From Deltaproteobacteria bacterium (GTDB lineage: Bacteria; UBA10199; JADFYH01), in the NCBI GenBank assembly GCA_015233135.1, contig JADFYH010000024.1, positions 1 to 47,940 on the forward strand: a stretch of DNA of 47,940 nt, in the 5' to 3' direction. Below the pieces are notes generated by a model. The model saw nothing but the letters and a program-made list of their open reading frames with translations, was not told the origin of the DNA and did no database searches. Position 1 is the first letter of the stretch, and each line of letters starts with the position of its first letter. The translations under genes were made by a program, and so were the position numbers. Below are positions 28,320 through 44,189 of this stretch, piece by piece.

Positions 28320-29555
28320 TTAAAGATACAGTGGAAATTTTTTACAAAATTCTTTGATCTCAGTCTTAATCTTCTGTTGAAGAGATTCATTTTTTATATC
28401 GTTCAAAATGTCTGAAATCCAGTTTCCAATCTGCTTCATTTCATTTTCTTTCATGCCACGAGTCGTCAGGGCTGGCGTACCTATACGAATACCGCTGGTG
28501 ACAAAGGGAGAGAGTTTTTCCTGGGGCACCGTGTTTTTATTCACGGTAATGCCTGCCTTACCCAAGGCCTCTTCGGCCTCTTTTCCGGTAAGACCTCTTG
28601 GAGAAAGATCTACTAACATTAAATGATTGTCTGTCCCGCCCGAAACCAAGCGAAAATCTTTGGCCATTAGAGTGACCGCCAAGGCCTGGGCATTTTGAAT
28701 CACCTGAGCCGCATAAACCTTGAAATCAGCAGAGAGTGCTTCTCTAAATGCCACCGCTTTTGCAGCAATCACATGCATCAGCGGTCCACCTTGAATACCA
28801 GGGAAAATCTTACTGTTCACTTCTTTCGCATAGGCCTCCTGACACAGAATCATGCCCCCTCGAGGCCCGCGGAGGGTTTTGTGGGTAGTCGTGGTCACAT
28901 ATTCACAATGGGGAACTGGATCGGGATGGAGAGCAGTGGCTACAAGACCCGCAACATGAGCAATATCGGCCAGGATGCGAGCACCTACTTCATCGGCAAT
29001 TTCACGAAATTTTTTGAAGTCAATTTGACGGGGATAAGCAGAGGCTCCTACTACAATGAGTTTGGGTTTATTCTTTAGAGCTAAATCACGAACTTGATTA
29101 AAATCGATGGTTTCAGTCTCACTATTTAAACCATAAGAAGAAACATCAAAAAGAAAACCCGAAAAGTTGACCGGAGAACCGTGGGTGAGATGCCCCCCAT
29201 GAGAGAGACTCATTCCCAAGACCTTGTCTCCAGGCTTTAAGAAGGAAAAATAAACTGCCATGTTGGCCTGTGACCCCGAATGGGGTTGCACATTCACATG
29301 ATCGGCCTTAAAAAGTTTTTTGGCGCGCTGGATGGCCAGATTTTCAGCCACATCTGCATACTCGCAGCCCCCGTAATAGCGCTTTCCCGGATAGCCTTCC
29401 GCATATTTATTGGTAAGCACTGAACCCTGGGCCTCCATCACGGCCTTGCTGACAAAATTCTCGCTCGCAATCATTTCGAGCTTATATTCTTGTCGTTCGG
29501 TCTCAAACTGGATGGCTTCGGCAATTTCAGGATCTTGAGATTGGAGTAGAGACAT
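28320..29555 (-). CDS. glyA: Serine hydroxymethyltransferase
   Basis: GlyA interconverts serine and glycine with tetrahydrofolate. The 411-residue PLP enzyme has [45 protein letters not shown] and the PLP lysine in [15 protein letters not shown]. The C-terminal [15 protein letters not shown] binds substrate. Length is typical. It belongs to the operon with rpiB upstream and nrdR downstream. The last ~15 residues are lysine-rich. Confidence 0.97.
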
Positions 29556-29579: not shown

Positions 29580-30020
29580 TTAAAGGGATTCTAAATTCTT
29601 AATCTGATCCAAGCGCTGTTGATGCCTTCCCCCTGCATACTTTGCTTTTAACCAGGCCCAGAGCACTCTTTTTGCTTTCTCTTCATCTAAAATCCTGGCC
29701 CCCAAGGCAAGTACATTTGCATTATTATGTTCCTTGGCCATTCGGGCTGAAAACAAATCGGATACCACTGCAGCACGAATGCCTTTTATTTTATTGGCAG
29801 CAATAGAAATACCCACACCCGTTCCACAGATGAGGACACCCGCTTCTGCCCTGCCCTGCTGGATTTGCTCACAAAGCAGATGCGCAAAATCCGGATAATC
29901 TACAGAAGCTGTCGAAAAAGGACCCAAATCGACACAATCTATTTTTTTTTGGATTAAAAAATCTCGTAAGGTGTTTTTAAGAAAATAACCGGCATGGTCA
30001 GAGGCTAAAACAAGTTTCAT
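29580..30020 (-). CDS. rpiB: Ribose 5-phosphate isomerase B
   Basis: RpiB interconverts ribose and ribulose 5-phosphates. The 146-residue protein has the RpiB/LacAB hallmarks: [20 protein letters not shown] with [18 protein letters not shown], and [20 protein letters not shown] with the catalytic Cys. [15 protein letters not shown] follows. It overlaps acpP by 4 bp (ATGA). In related genomes fabF sits between acpP and rpiB; it is missing here. Confidence 0.95.
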
Positions 30021-30532: not shown

Positions 30533-33500
30533 TTAATTACGTTCTTCAACAAAGAGCTGCACCCGGCGATTTTGTTCCCGATGAGATTCATCACTATTGG
30601 GAACAATAGGCTTGGCCTTTCCATAACCCACCGCTCTCAAACGGCCAGCATCGACACCCTGCCCTACCAAGTGATCGACCACAGACTGCGCCCTATTTTG
30701 AGAAAGTTTTTGATTGTAGCGATCGGAGCCCAGATCACAGGTATGCCCTTCTACTCTCACGCGTTTCAGTTCGACATGCTTGTTCAAAAAAGCGGCTACT
30801 TTACCTAAGATAGGTTTACTGATTTCGCGGATATTAAACTTGTCATAATCAAAAAATAGTTTTTCGGCCATGCGAATTTCATCGCCCACCAAATAGACGT
30901 CTTGATCGTCTTTGAGAGGGAGTTCATCGCCTGTATTTTTTATTTCCAACTCATCTGGAGGTCTCTTCGTATAAGTCACCCCTGTAAAGGCGCGATAAGC
31001 AGGAGCAGTGATCCCATTGGTCATCCCCATCCCCCCACCAAAATTTACATCGATGCCATTTTTAAAGCTATATCGTCCCCCCAAACGTGCTTCCAGAGGA
31101 CTGGTTCGTCTATCCTCAAAAAATTTCACTGTTTTTACTTCCGCTTCAGCAATCACTTTGAGTTTTTTAGGAAGGGCATCTACCGACACCCCCAAGCCCC
31201 CCTGAAATTGATCATCGATCAAATGTCCTGCAACATCCAGCACTGGACTGCGCATTTCGTAACCCACGTTGGCGGCCACAGAAACTCGTTTGTGGGGTTT
31301 GAAATCGACAATCAGCTTGCCTCCTCCTGAGAAATCCCCATTACCGGTAAAATTGGTCGCAGCATTCGTGGCGCTAGGAATAGAGAGATAAGGCAGTAAA
31401 CTCACACCCACATGGTGTTTCTTACGGTCTAAAATTTTAAATTTTAGGGCAAACTCCAAATCGCCCATTTCAGTATGAGCCTCATCCAATCTTCCCAAGG
31501 CGGGGGCATTGATACTTTCCCAAAGATACACGGGCATACGAATACCTACATCCAACCAGTTCAAGACTCCGTAAGAAGCAAGGGCATCGGCAATAAGCAC
31601 GTTGTCGCTTATTCCAGACTGCCGTACAAAATTGGAATTTCCTACTTCATAAGGACGTCGGGCATAATCAAACCATAACCCAAAATGAAATTTCCCCTGC
31701 TGTAGAGTGGGAGAGCCATAAACAGAATAATATTCTGAATCATCCATCGCAGGTTTAAAGAAATTTAAACCAAAGGAAGGATCTGCTTTAGCGGGTGGAT
31801 TAAAAAGCATTAAACTCAGAAGGATTAAAGAGAGTGAAAAAACGCCCTTTAAGGCAGAGCTTCTTCTAAAGCGCAGTGCGACCAAAAAAGCCACAAGCCC
31901 CACATAGAAAAAGACCGGAGTCTTATTGGAATTTACCGCGGGATTAAGAGAAGCCACACAACCTCCTTGATTATCTAAAGGGTTACCTTGTGAATCTGTG
32001 AGGGTGGTCTGGCCACCCACAACTTGTGCGCCAGTTTGTCCTTGGCCATTTCCTGAATTGTTCTGATTTCCACTATTACTATTACCGTTGTTATTGTTAG
32101 ATCCGCCATCGATATTACTTGTATTTCCCCCGCCGGTATCCTGCACCAGCTGACAATTGACACAAGTGTATCCGCTGGGAACAGGACCACAGGCCGTGCC
32201 ATCGCACGATTCTCCGAGGTCACAGACGTTATTTCCACAATTATTTACATTTTGGTTTCCTCCTCCTGGGTTTGGAGTGGATGCCTTGGAGAGGACCGTC
32301 ACCCTCTTTGTATCGTGGGCAAAGTCAGAAGGCACTTTTCCACATCGGCTGGAGCAGGTTAAGGTCAGATCATAGGTGCCCGGAGTATTAAAAGTAAAAG
32401 TGGGGACTAGAGTACTTGTCCCTGAAGAAGTGTAATTTGAATCGCCCGTCACAACAGCCACGGACCAGGAAGCAGAAAAGATAGCGGATGCATCCGCCGG
32501 ATTAGTAGAACATTCACCGCTCACAACGGTTGCAACTCCGACTAATGTAGAAATATCTGAACCTGCATTGGAAACAATGCTCTCCAAGCTATTCATGAAA
32601 ACAAAGGCTTTTCTTTCTAATGAGGGCGCAGTGGCCAGGGCAATCAGATCATCCCCTCCGGCAAGATCGAAATTCGAAGAACTAATCCCTGTAGCCTCAA
32701 GAAACTTGCCTGCCCCAAAGCTCAACGGCAAAGCGGTGTTCGACGGGGCGTAAGCACCACTGGAGAAAGCAGAGTTGAATACCACCACCCGTCCACTACT
32801 CACATTATTTGTGTCATCCTGGTAGGTAAAAGCCACGTCCTCCGCATTGTCATTATTAAAGCAACCTGTTGTCAGTGCAAATGGCTCTCCAGTAGTCGTG
32901 GGCGCATACACACGGTAATTCGATAAATTGAATCCCCCATTTTGCCCATTTATTAAATAATGAATCCCCCTGCCTTCTTGACCAGCCCCTGGGGTAGCGG
33001 TGAGGCCTGGGGTGGTATAGACAATATCCCCCCAACCATCCCCGTTAAAATCACCGATGGCAATGGAGGTTGGACGAGGATTCGAGGCGCCACTGCCTAC
33101 ATCGTAGTAGTCACAGAAATAAGTCATGCTGGAGGGACATTTTCCGGTAAAATCACAGAGAATAATCTTGCTCCCATTGACGCTATCATTAAGGGCTATC
33201 GCGACGTCCTTATTTTGATCGTTATTCAAATCTCCCACAGCGATGGAGGCACTGGCTGTCGTGTCCGCGAGGACTCCCGTATCCACATCCGTACGCGTTC
33301 CAGAGGCATCAAAAACAGCTAAAATCAGATTAGACGGAGAACTCTGATCAATGAGTGGCACCACTTTATTTCCAGCAACATCACTTCCAGCACATTCAAA
33401 GACAGCAGAAGTAGGCTGAGCCACTGTAGGGCTTGCCACCCCATATTTCGGAAGCCAAGAGAGATGAGAAGGGGTGACCGTTGAACCATCAAGGCCATAA

Positions 33501-34012
33501 CCCCCAGAAGCATCAGGATTTGAAAAAATTGTAATTTCGTAATCTGAATATTGGGGGAAAAAAATCGACGTGAGATCCGGCGTAGCTGAAAAACGACCTA
33601 CAGAAACAGAACCCATGGAACCCACAGTATTTATAGGATTGGGCGTATAGTTTAAGACGTTCGAATCAAATTGCTCGGTTAACCCGCCACAATCATTCCC
33701 AGGCCCATTTCCCAATAGTATGCTAAACGCTGCATTCCCTTGCTCTCCAGCGCGAAGGGCGACACAATCAGGAAATCCATCCCCATTGAAATCTGCAAAA
33801 GTTGAAGAATTTTTGCAGGCAACGCTATGGGCACTACTTTCAGACCCTCCAGAACAGGTTAGACCTGAGCCTGCAACTGAGTCACAGAGTACCAAATGAT
33901 ATTCACAAGAGGTATTGCTCTGTTGAAAAACTTGAGAAAAAGAAGAAATTTGAAACAAGAAAATAGGTAACGCAAAACCAACGACGAAAGATAAAATTCT
34001 CGCTTTATTCAT
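30533..34012 (-). CDS. Fusion of a secreted FG-GAP/PKD protein and an OmpA-family outer-membrane protein
   Basis: A 1159-residue protein with a cleavable-looking signal at 5-27. Residues 70-480 hold FG-GAP/VCBS repeats (FADFNGDGFPDCVAL, VAVGDLNNDQNKDVAIAL-like, IAIGDFNGDGWGDIVY). A PKD-like domain follows (about 490-590, with TFNTPGTYDLTLTC), then a cysteine-rich piece and an Asn/Gly-rich linker. Near 680-710, GGCVASLNP is followed by a hydrophobic helix and RFRRS, like a MYXO-CTERM sorting tail. A second signal-like helix ends with NPPAKA/DP (about 715-740) and leads into a beta-barrel-like region and a C-terminal OmpA domain (KLFFDYDKFNI; NRAQSVVDHLV; NRRVQLFVEERN) that binds peptidoglycan. 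It looks like two genes fused in frame. A weak sigma-28-like -10 (TCCGATAA) lies at 34102-34109. Confidence 0.85.
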   Translation of the reverse strand: MNKARILSFVVGFALPIFLFQISSFSQVFQQSNTSCEYHLVLCDSVAGSGLTCSGGSESSAHSVACKNSSTFADFNGDGFPDCVALRAGEQGNAAFSILLGNGPGNDCGGLTEQFDSNVLNYTPNPINTVGSMGSVSVGRFSATPDLTSIFFPQYSDYEITIFSNPDASGGYGLDGSTVTPSHLSWLPKYGVASPTVAQPTSAVFECAGSDVAGNKVVPLIDQSSPSNLILAVFDASGTRTDVDTGVLADTTASASIAVGDLNNDQNKDVAIALNDSVNGSKIILCDFTGKCPSSMTYFCDYYDVGSGASNPRPTSIAIGDFNGDGWGDIVYTTPGLTATPGAGQEGRGIHYLINGQNGGFNLSNYRVYAPTTTGEPFALTTGCFNNDNAEDVAFTYQDDTNNVSSGRVVVFNSAFSSGAYAPSNTALPLSFGAGKFLEATGISSSNFDLAGGDDLIALATAPSLERKAFVFMNSLESIVSNAGSDISTLVGVATVVSGECSTNPADASAIFSASWSVAVVTGDSNYTSSGTSTLVPTFTFNTPGTYDLTLTCSSRCGKVPSDFAHDTKRVTVLSKASTPNPGGGNQNVNNCGNNVCDLGESCDGTACGPVPSGYTCVNCQLVQDTGGGNTSNIDGGSNNNNGNSNSGNQNNSGNGQGQTGAQVVGGQTTLTDSQGNPLDNQGGCVASLNPAVNSNKTPVFFYVGLVAFLVALRFRRSSALKGVFSLSLILLSLMLFNPPAKADPSFGLNFFKPAMDDSEYYSVYGSPTLQQGKFHFGLWFDYARRPYEVGNSNFVRQSGISDNVLIADALASYGVLNWLDVGIRMPVYLWESINAPALGRLDEAHTEMGDLEFALKFKILDRKKHHVGVSLLPYLSIPSATNAATNFTGNGDFSGGGKLIVDFKPHKRVSVAANVGYEMRSPVLDVAGHLIDDQFQGGLGVSVDALPKKLKVIAEAEVKTVKFFEDRRTSPLEARLGGRYSFKNGIDVNFGGGMGMTNGITAPAYRAFTGVTYTKRPPDELEIKNTGDELPLKDDQDVYLVGDEIRMAEKLFFDYDKFNIREISKPILGKVAAFLNKHVELKRVRVEGHTCDLGSDRYNQKLSQNRAQSVVDHLVGQGVDAGRLRAVGYGKAKPIVPNSDESHREQNRRVQLFVEERN

Positions 34013-34163: not shown

Positions 34164-34724
34164 CTATCTTTTTACATCCAACTTCCCCAGAATTCTGAAC
34201 GGAGATTCTTTCATGCGTTGTTTTTCCTCACACTGGCAGTCTTTCTCATTCAAATTTCCACCGCAAACCTTACATAAACCTTTGCATGCGGGTTGGCACA
34301 AAAACACCATTGGTAAATCCAAAAAAGTCTGCTCCACCAGCATTTCACCCAAATCGATTTCATTGCTTTTGTAAAAGCTGAAATTGACGTCTTCGGCACT
34401 CAGCTCGACATCTTCCGATGCCTCGATGTCGCGTTGACGCTGCGATTCTTTGAGCGGCGCCATCCAGCGCTGGCTCTGAACTTTCATGGGAATCACAAAG
34501 GGGACAAGACAACGGTCACAAGTCCCATGGTAATCAAGGGTTAATTCCCCCGTAAAAGAGAGGTTGGCACCCGTTTTCTGGATTTTCAAAAAGCCCTGGA
34601 GGGGCTCTCCCTTTTTCCAATGCTCTTGAAAGGCCTCCTCAAATTTTTTCTTCGCCCAAGGGTCTTTATCAGAAAAATTCTGAAAAAAACCTTCGTCGGA
34701 TATTCGAGAAACTTGAACTTTCAT
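34164..34724 (-). CDS. yceD: YceD/DUF177 family protein
   Basis: The family is needed for 23S rRNA accumulation in bacteria and plastids. The 186-residue protein has the core GTCDRCLVPFVIPM and the C-terminal cysteines CQPACKGLCKVCGGNLNEKD that often bind metal. It normally precedes rpmF in one operon; here the FG-GAP/OmpA fusion gene lies between. Its start is only 26 bp from the divergent ABC1-kinase gene, so both promoters must overlap there. Confidence 0.88.
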   Translation of the reverse strand: MKVQVSRISDEGFFQNFSDKDPWAKKKFEEAFQEHWKKGEPLQGFLKIQKTGANLSFTGELTLDYHGTCDRCLVPFVIPMKVQSQRWMAPLKESQRQRDIEASEDVELSAEDVNFSFYKSNEIDLGEMLVEQTFLDLPMVFLCQPACKGLCKVCGGNLNEKDCQCEEKQRMKESPFRILGKLDVKR

Positions 34725-43606: not shown

Positions 43607-44189
43607 ATGGCATCTTTCGACAGAGAGGATAAAAAAGCCCAATCGCTCCATTAACAATCCCTTTGACATCGTCACCGACGACTTCAACCACGATGGCCAC
43701 GCGGACCTCTTAATTTCTGTCACCGGCAGCAATAAAATTGTGACATTACTGGGCAACAAAGAACCCACGCTCTCAAGCCCCTCGATAGATTCCACAACAG
43801 GCGTCTTTCAAGTCACCTATACCGATGCCGATAACGAAGCACCGACAAGTATTACCGTAACCATTGATGGAACACCAGTGACCGAAGCAGACCCAACAGA
43901 CACCACTTACACTGACGGCAAAATCTATCACGTCACCCACGCCCTAGCCGAAGGCAGCCACAGCTACAAATTCGCCGCTAGCGATGGCACTTACAATGCA
44001 GTCGGTAACCCAGCTTCAATCGTAACCACCGACCAAAGCGTAACGGTAGCTCCTGCAGCCACGGCTTCTAGCAGTGGAGGGTGTTCTCTTTCTTCTTCTC
44101 CCTCTCATGATGAAACACTGTATGCATTTGCTGCGTCAATTTTGATGTTGGGTGCGGTGAGAATTGTCAGGAGAAGAAGTGTTTCTTAA
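43607..44189 (+). pseudogene. 3' fragment of an FG-GAP surface protein with MYXO-CTERM-like tail
   Basis: The frame opens directly after a stop at 43604-43606 and has no proper start. It begins with an FG-GAP/VCBS unit (DDFNHDGHADLLISVTGSNK), continues with an Ig-like region (VFQVTYTDADNEAPTSITVT) and ends with GGCSLSSS, a hydrophobic helix and RRRS. This Cys + helix + Arg tail resembles MYXO-CTERM sorting signals and matches the internal tail in the fusion protein at 30533-34012. The 5' part of the gene, with signal peptide, is missing. Its stop overlaps the convergent immunity-gene stop by 4 bp. Confidence 0.65.

Follow-up and report, generated by a model that had tools for sequence, protein, structure and literature searches.

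A probable TraA/TraB-like polyprotein precursor with tandem sorting signals in a UBA10199 bacterium

The window analysed here, a 47,940-nucleotide stretch of DNA from a bacterium of the UBA10199 lineage, carries on its reverse strand a gene in which a sorting tag that normally ends a protein stands in the middle of one and is directly followed by what resembles a second signal peptide. This layout raises the question of whether two neighbouring genes have been merged by error or whether a genuine precursor is encoded and, in the latter case, how its halves would be sorted. The comparisons reported below support the reading of the gene as a fusion of two genes that are found apart elsewhere, with a middle segment that is most likely cleaved, and its product is probably a TraA/TraB-like polyprotein precursor with tandem sorting signals that would be cut into a surface protein and an OMP/OmpA anchor.

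Layout of the fused frame

The gene (Table 1) is one open frame from ATG to stop, with zero internal stops in its 1159 codons, and the frame is identical in assembly G000, the window's own genome. Along the protein, an N-terminal signal peptide is followed by FG-GAP repeats, a weak PKD-like domain, a Cys-rich motif, a QGGC tag, a first helix (residues 699-713), the Arg-rich stretch RFRRSSALK (714-722), a second helix (723-737), the motif NPPAKA (738-743), an OMP domain and an OmpA domain. The initial annotation had described a Cys, helix and Arg tail at about residues 680-710, a second signal-peptide-like segment ending in NPPAKA/D directly after it, and a CTERM-type FG-GAP part joined in frame to an OmpA part. 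All three observations hold, the last of them in an intact frame with FG-GAP and OmpA matches above the Pfam cut-offs.

Table 1. Position of the fused gene and of its parts in the window
Feature	Coordinates	Strand	Residues	Evidence
Fused precursor gene	30533..34012	-	1-1159	Single intact frame; G003 has an orthologous fused frame at this locus
N-terminal Sec signal peptide	33935..34012	-	1-26	ILSFVVGFALPIFLFQI is hydrophobic (hydropathy 2.35); position of the cleavage site judged by eye
FG-GAP repeats, core of the N-terminal surface domain	32981..33337	-	226-344	PF01839 45.7 bits, PF13517 38.7 bits, both above cut-off
Possible PKD-like domain (tentative)	32330..32485	-	510-561	PF18911/PF00801 below cut-off, E 0.03-0.05
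Cys-rich stalk-like motif	32150..32245	-	590-621	Read off the sequence
Internal MYXO-CTERM-like sorting tag QGGC-helix-RFRR	31859..31969	-	682-718	Cys685 (codon 31958-31960); lineage tag profile A1, E 5.5e-14, partly a self-match, this tag being among the 12 rows of the profile
Internal signal-peptide-like segment	31784..31858	-	719-743	Predicted signal peptidase I site between AKA and D; NPPAKA at 31784-31801
OMP domain, probable beta-barrel	30881..31783	-	744-1044	Relatives in 46/46 phylum genomes
OmpA peptidoglycan-binding domain	30566..30856	-	1053-1149	PF00691 77 bits, cut-off 27.2

The invariant Cys, hydrophobic helix and Arg-rich cluster that define the MYXO-CTERM motif are represented here by QGGC685, the first helix and RFRRSSALK, although the tag is internal to the protein and not C-terminal. 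A TIGR03901 search of the genome (E up to 1) listed C30 above the cut-off and C1 below it, and the window tag was not listed. Both halves have unfused paralogues in the same genome. That of the N-half (L008 5507-8137, 876 aa) has its tag, GGCAASLNP..., in terminal position, with four DUF4215 stretches ahead of it, and that of the OMP half (L007 6315-7625) is 436 aa long. Pfam support for the barrel comes solely from the G010 orthologue of the OMP domain, which matches PF13557 above the cut-off; a single-sequence AlphaFold model of the C-terminal 495 residues was uninformative (pLDDT 33.5), and the barrel assignment rests on homology. Solved relatives of the OmpA domain include Pal, OprF and YfiB. 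A contig scan returned OmpA-domain matches only, in unrelated taxa.

Fused and split relatives in the phylum

Fused forms were found in at least 15 of 46 phylum genomes, a count that includes G015, where the frame runs to the contig end just past the junction. All 46 genomes belong to one class, which suggests that the phylum is distinct from GTDB Myxococcota. Frames like that of the window are kept in G003, G010, G015, G021 and G027, and all of these except G015 encode orthologues that are 45-49% identical over the C-terminal part and have the tag and the second helix in frame. Fused genes that are more distantly related and have different N-terminal domains, such as TSP3 repeats or a beta-propeller, are present in G002, G004, G008, G009, G014, G019, G020, G023 and G031, and G019 has two fused genes in tandem. 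The fused gene of G010 (L048 5669-7528) combines a short Cys-rich N-part with the tag, the second helix and OMP/OmpA. The arrangement in that genome is a mixed one, a free FG-GAP CTERM gene (L048 3536-5662) lying just upstream of the short fused gene.

Gene order is also shared. In G003, which belongs to another family, the fused frame occupies the same locus as in the window, between a gene resembling window 34164-34724 in size and likeness on one side and acpP and rpiB-glyA on the other, while in G021 the fused gene adjoins, on the other side, ubiB and a TonB-like gene, again matching the window (gene names assigned by eye in both cases). The rpiB and glyA homologues of G003 themselves form a single 558-aa open frame (L047 1049-2725); the window has them as separate genes (28320-29555 and 29580-30020).

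Split forms also occur, and two of them (G038 and G033) fall within the window's own clade. In G038, the gene for a free FG-GAP protein ending in a CTERM tag lies before an OMP/OmpA gene that has a signal peptide and its own ATG, preceded by AGGGAG; the free protein is homologous to the fused N-halves, and weakly (38 bits) to that of the window. In G033, the OMP gene comes with a signal peptide of its own, and no tagged gene neighbours it on the contig. Neighbouring CTERM and OMP genes, in that order, were also identified in G005, G016, G028, G030 and G042, and in the split orthologues L050 and L051 the N-terminal signal peptide corresponds to the internal residues 719-743 of the window protein. 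In a tree built from 48 OMP halves (15 fused, 33 split), the fused/split label requires at least five changes, all of them forced by well-supported branches (bootstrap range 5-5). A single fusion event was rejected on the basis of these five changes. Three fusions and two splits would be one reading of them, the tree alone leaving their direction unfixed. Fusion and splitting are recurrent in this lineage.

These results bear directly on the possibility that a missed stop or a frameshift in the assembly has merged two genes, as the initial annotation suspected for the junction. The protein does look like two welded genes, and relatives have split forms, but the fused frame recurs in independently assembled genomes of other genera and families, in G003 at the same locus, and the C-terminal identity is at the level given above. 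Assembly error was rejected on these grounds and is, in our estimation, extremely improbable; since the join is conserved in relatives and has arisen several times, the fusion is not a sequencing error. The initial annotation had also pointed to what would speak against an artefact, namely relatives in which the gene is likewise single and intact and its middle segment is conserved, and this is what the phylum genomes contain. Its description of two neighbouring genes with a lost boundary is correct insofar as the halves do exist as separate genes, as in G038; a recent loss is at odds with the retention of the fused frame across genera and families and with the changes counted on the tree.

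The junction and its putative processing

The two-helix junctions of 12 related sequences span 57-63 aa and have in common the Cys, helix 1, a loop and helix 2. In all 12, the loop contains two to four K/R and no D/E, and the signal-peptidase-like site has Ala at position -1. The predicted pattern is that of a stop-transfer tag leading directly into a signal peptide, and its presence across these related sequences is well beyond chance. In family f3, four fused proteins have instead a single hydrophobic segment at a junction of 36-38 aa and are not explained by the hairpin model outlined below. They are L056, L057, L058 and L060, an example of their junctions being GCSMLPGGSFVMGIWWLILIFWFGVIPKVWGLNID.

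In the precursor that we consider probable, the frame would be translated as one chain and would thereby yield, at a fixed 1:1 ratio, a surface protein resembling TraA and an outer-membrane/OmpA anchor resembling TraB. The N-terminal signal peptide would take the chain into the periplasm, helix 1 of the CTERM tag would stop transfer, the Arg loop would remain cytoplasmic and helix 2 would restart transfer; both domains would therefore be periplasmic before cleavage, facing that compartment on either side of a two-helix hairpin held in the inner membrane. Cys685 would be lipidated, a candidate enzyme being the Lgt homologue encoded beside the protease gene, and a myxosortase-family protease would cut the chain next to this residue, after which the N-half would reach the surface through type II secretion. 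Signal peptidase I would cut after Ala743 and free the OMP half for insertion in the outer membrane, where its OmpA domain would bind peptidoglycan. Once separated, the halves may still act together, for instance in adhesion or contact. Sorting had been considered paradoxical unless the middle was cleaved. Cleavage does seem most likely, and the paradox would dissolve if the two signals formed such a hairpin.

Genes for this putative machinery are present. A myxosortase-family CPBP gene was found in 36 of 40 phylum genomes, with a match in one of 14 control genomes. The protease of G000 (L080 4914-5609) scores 86 bits against Mrt_core (NF040914), below the 100-bit cut-off that is exceeded in G003, G010, G018 and G021 (118-122 bits); its catalytic motifs EExxxR, FxxxH and HxxxN are present as PEEYFFR, FAFSH and FHALCN, and align in the five proteases compared. 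Myxosortase was not found in G027, a carrier of the fused gene whose genome is 83% complete. Type II secretion is present in G000, with GspD above the cut-off. A profile to which the tag of the window protein contributes gave ten tag-like matches in G000. A small protein elsewhere in the window (43740-44189, forward strand) ends in the MYXO-CTERM-like tag SSSGGCSLSSSPSHDETLYAFAASILMLGAVRIVRRRSVS (E 8.9e-12, the profile including this tag). Three weak tag-like matches, in frames of 634, 763 and 723 aa, lie close together at G000:C48 3277-9598, which is possibly a cluster of tagged surface proteins.

Of 30 genomes, 29 gave matches to Lgt (PF01790), as a rule two each. In all 27 genomes with both matches, an Lgt homologue lies upstream of the protease on the same strand, at 32-504 nt from domain to domain. 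The gene order in G000 is ileS-lspA-lgt-protease, with lgt and protease spanning L080 4030-5609 (G000:C10), and linked pairs are also seen at L082, L083, L084 and L085. A second, better-scoring Lgt is encoded on a different contig in G000 and elsewhere in the genome in most of the 27, and the protease-linked copy retains the Arg and RGD-region motifs. The MYXO-CTERM acyltransferase is called unidentified in PMC11980579, and we hypothesize that the protease-linked Lgt homologue acylates the cysteines of CTERM tags.

The OMP half could also be made, alone or in addition, from an internal start in or before helix 1, with helix 2 acting as an ordinary signal peptide. Such a nested gene could coexist with the precursor, and we regard it as improbable. 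TTG710 in G000 would yield a good signal peptide, MVALRFRRSSALKG-VFSLSLILLSLMLF-NPPAKA with D after the cleavage site, but it lacks a Shine-Dalgarno sequence; among the 12 two-helix junctions, no internal start with one is kept at a comparable position, and in G031 there is no ATG, GTG or TTG between the two helices. An AGGAGG directly precedes GTG686 in G000 and TTG627 in G021 and leaves room for internal initiation, although both starts would precede helix 1, and AGGAGG before such a start is not kept in G010, G015, G003 or G027.

Slightly less probable again is a product that stays largely as one chain, cut at one site or at none, in which the hairpin would be a lasting inner-membrane anchor tying a surface-type domain to the wall via OmpA. 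Conservation of the frame as a single chain and the f3 members with their single hydrophobic segment would agree with this arrangement. However, the OMP half has free-standing orthologues that carry signal peptides of their own, and its persistence in the inner membrane is disfavoured because such proteins would not work from there; the invariant Ala at -1 and the split forms within the same clade also argue against a lasting single chain.

Known systems and implications

The architecture is not new, because the same order of parts has been described for MXAN_5598 of M. xanthus, in which an adhesin, an internal MYXO-CTERM, a beta-barrel and OmpA share one frame. Guo, Haft and Wall propose a gene fusion, suggest processing of the N-part and liken the protein to TraA plus TraB (PMC11980579). 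The likeness to the window protein, by that description, extends to the surface domain, the internal tag, the OMP domain and OmpA; in contrast, MXAN_5598 is presented there as a single atypical case near ftsA/ftsZ, and the passage that describes it makes no mention of a second signal-peptide helix such as that seen here. Vesicle samples of M. xanthus have been found to contain MXAN_5598 (PMC4158809).

The TraA/TraB pair of outer membrane exchange likewise consists of a MYXO-CTERM surface protein with a Cys-rich stalk and a partner with an OmpA domain, but it is encoded by two neighbouring genes that overlap by four bases (PMC3325183), whereas the window has one frame. TraA is recognized by PA14, Cys-rich repeats and MYXO-CTERM, a combination that the window protein lacks: a Pfam search gave no PA14 match in it, and FG-GAP repeats instead. 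The best NCBIfam match of the C-half is the TraB profile NF033763, at 148-151 bits and thus far below the 700-bit cut-off, and the architecture of TraB, with a signal peptide (here on the split orthologues), an OMP domain and a C-terminal OmpA, is the same. With regard to MYXO-CTERM/myxosortase sorting (TIGR03901; MrtX, MrtC, MrtP), in which MrtX cleaves TraA (PMC11980579), the lineage shares the elements of the tag, one myxosortase-family protease in nearly every genome and type II secretion, but the internal tag is outside the TIGR03901 matches and the G000 protease scores below the MrtX, MrtP and MrtC cut-offs. A literature search on internal signal peptides in polyproteins found nothing.

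What is new here is the conservation of the fused frame, its repeated fusion and splitting and the tandem-signal junction in another lineage, together with a candidate acyltransferase, the Lgt homologue whose gene immediately precedes that of the myxosortase. It is conceivable, although we advance it tentatively, that this phylum repeatedly welds surface proteins to outer-membrane anchors as polyproteins with a cleavable hairpin of tag and internal signal peptide, a second Lgt being dedicated to lipidation of the tag Cys. It is unusual for a bacterial precursor to carry two membrane sorting signals in direct succession and, since fusion and splitting have occurred several times, the fused and split forms provide natural test pairs for the reading of such junctions. 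The constant Lgt-myxosortase neighbourhood, in turn, offers a concrete candidate for the acyltransferase that is missing from the MYXO-CTERM literature (PMC11980579).
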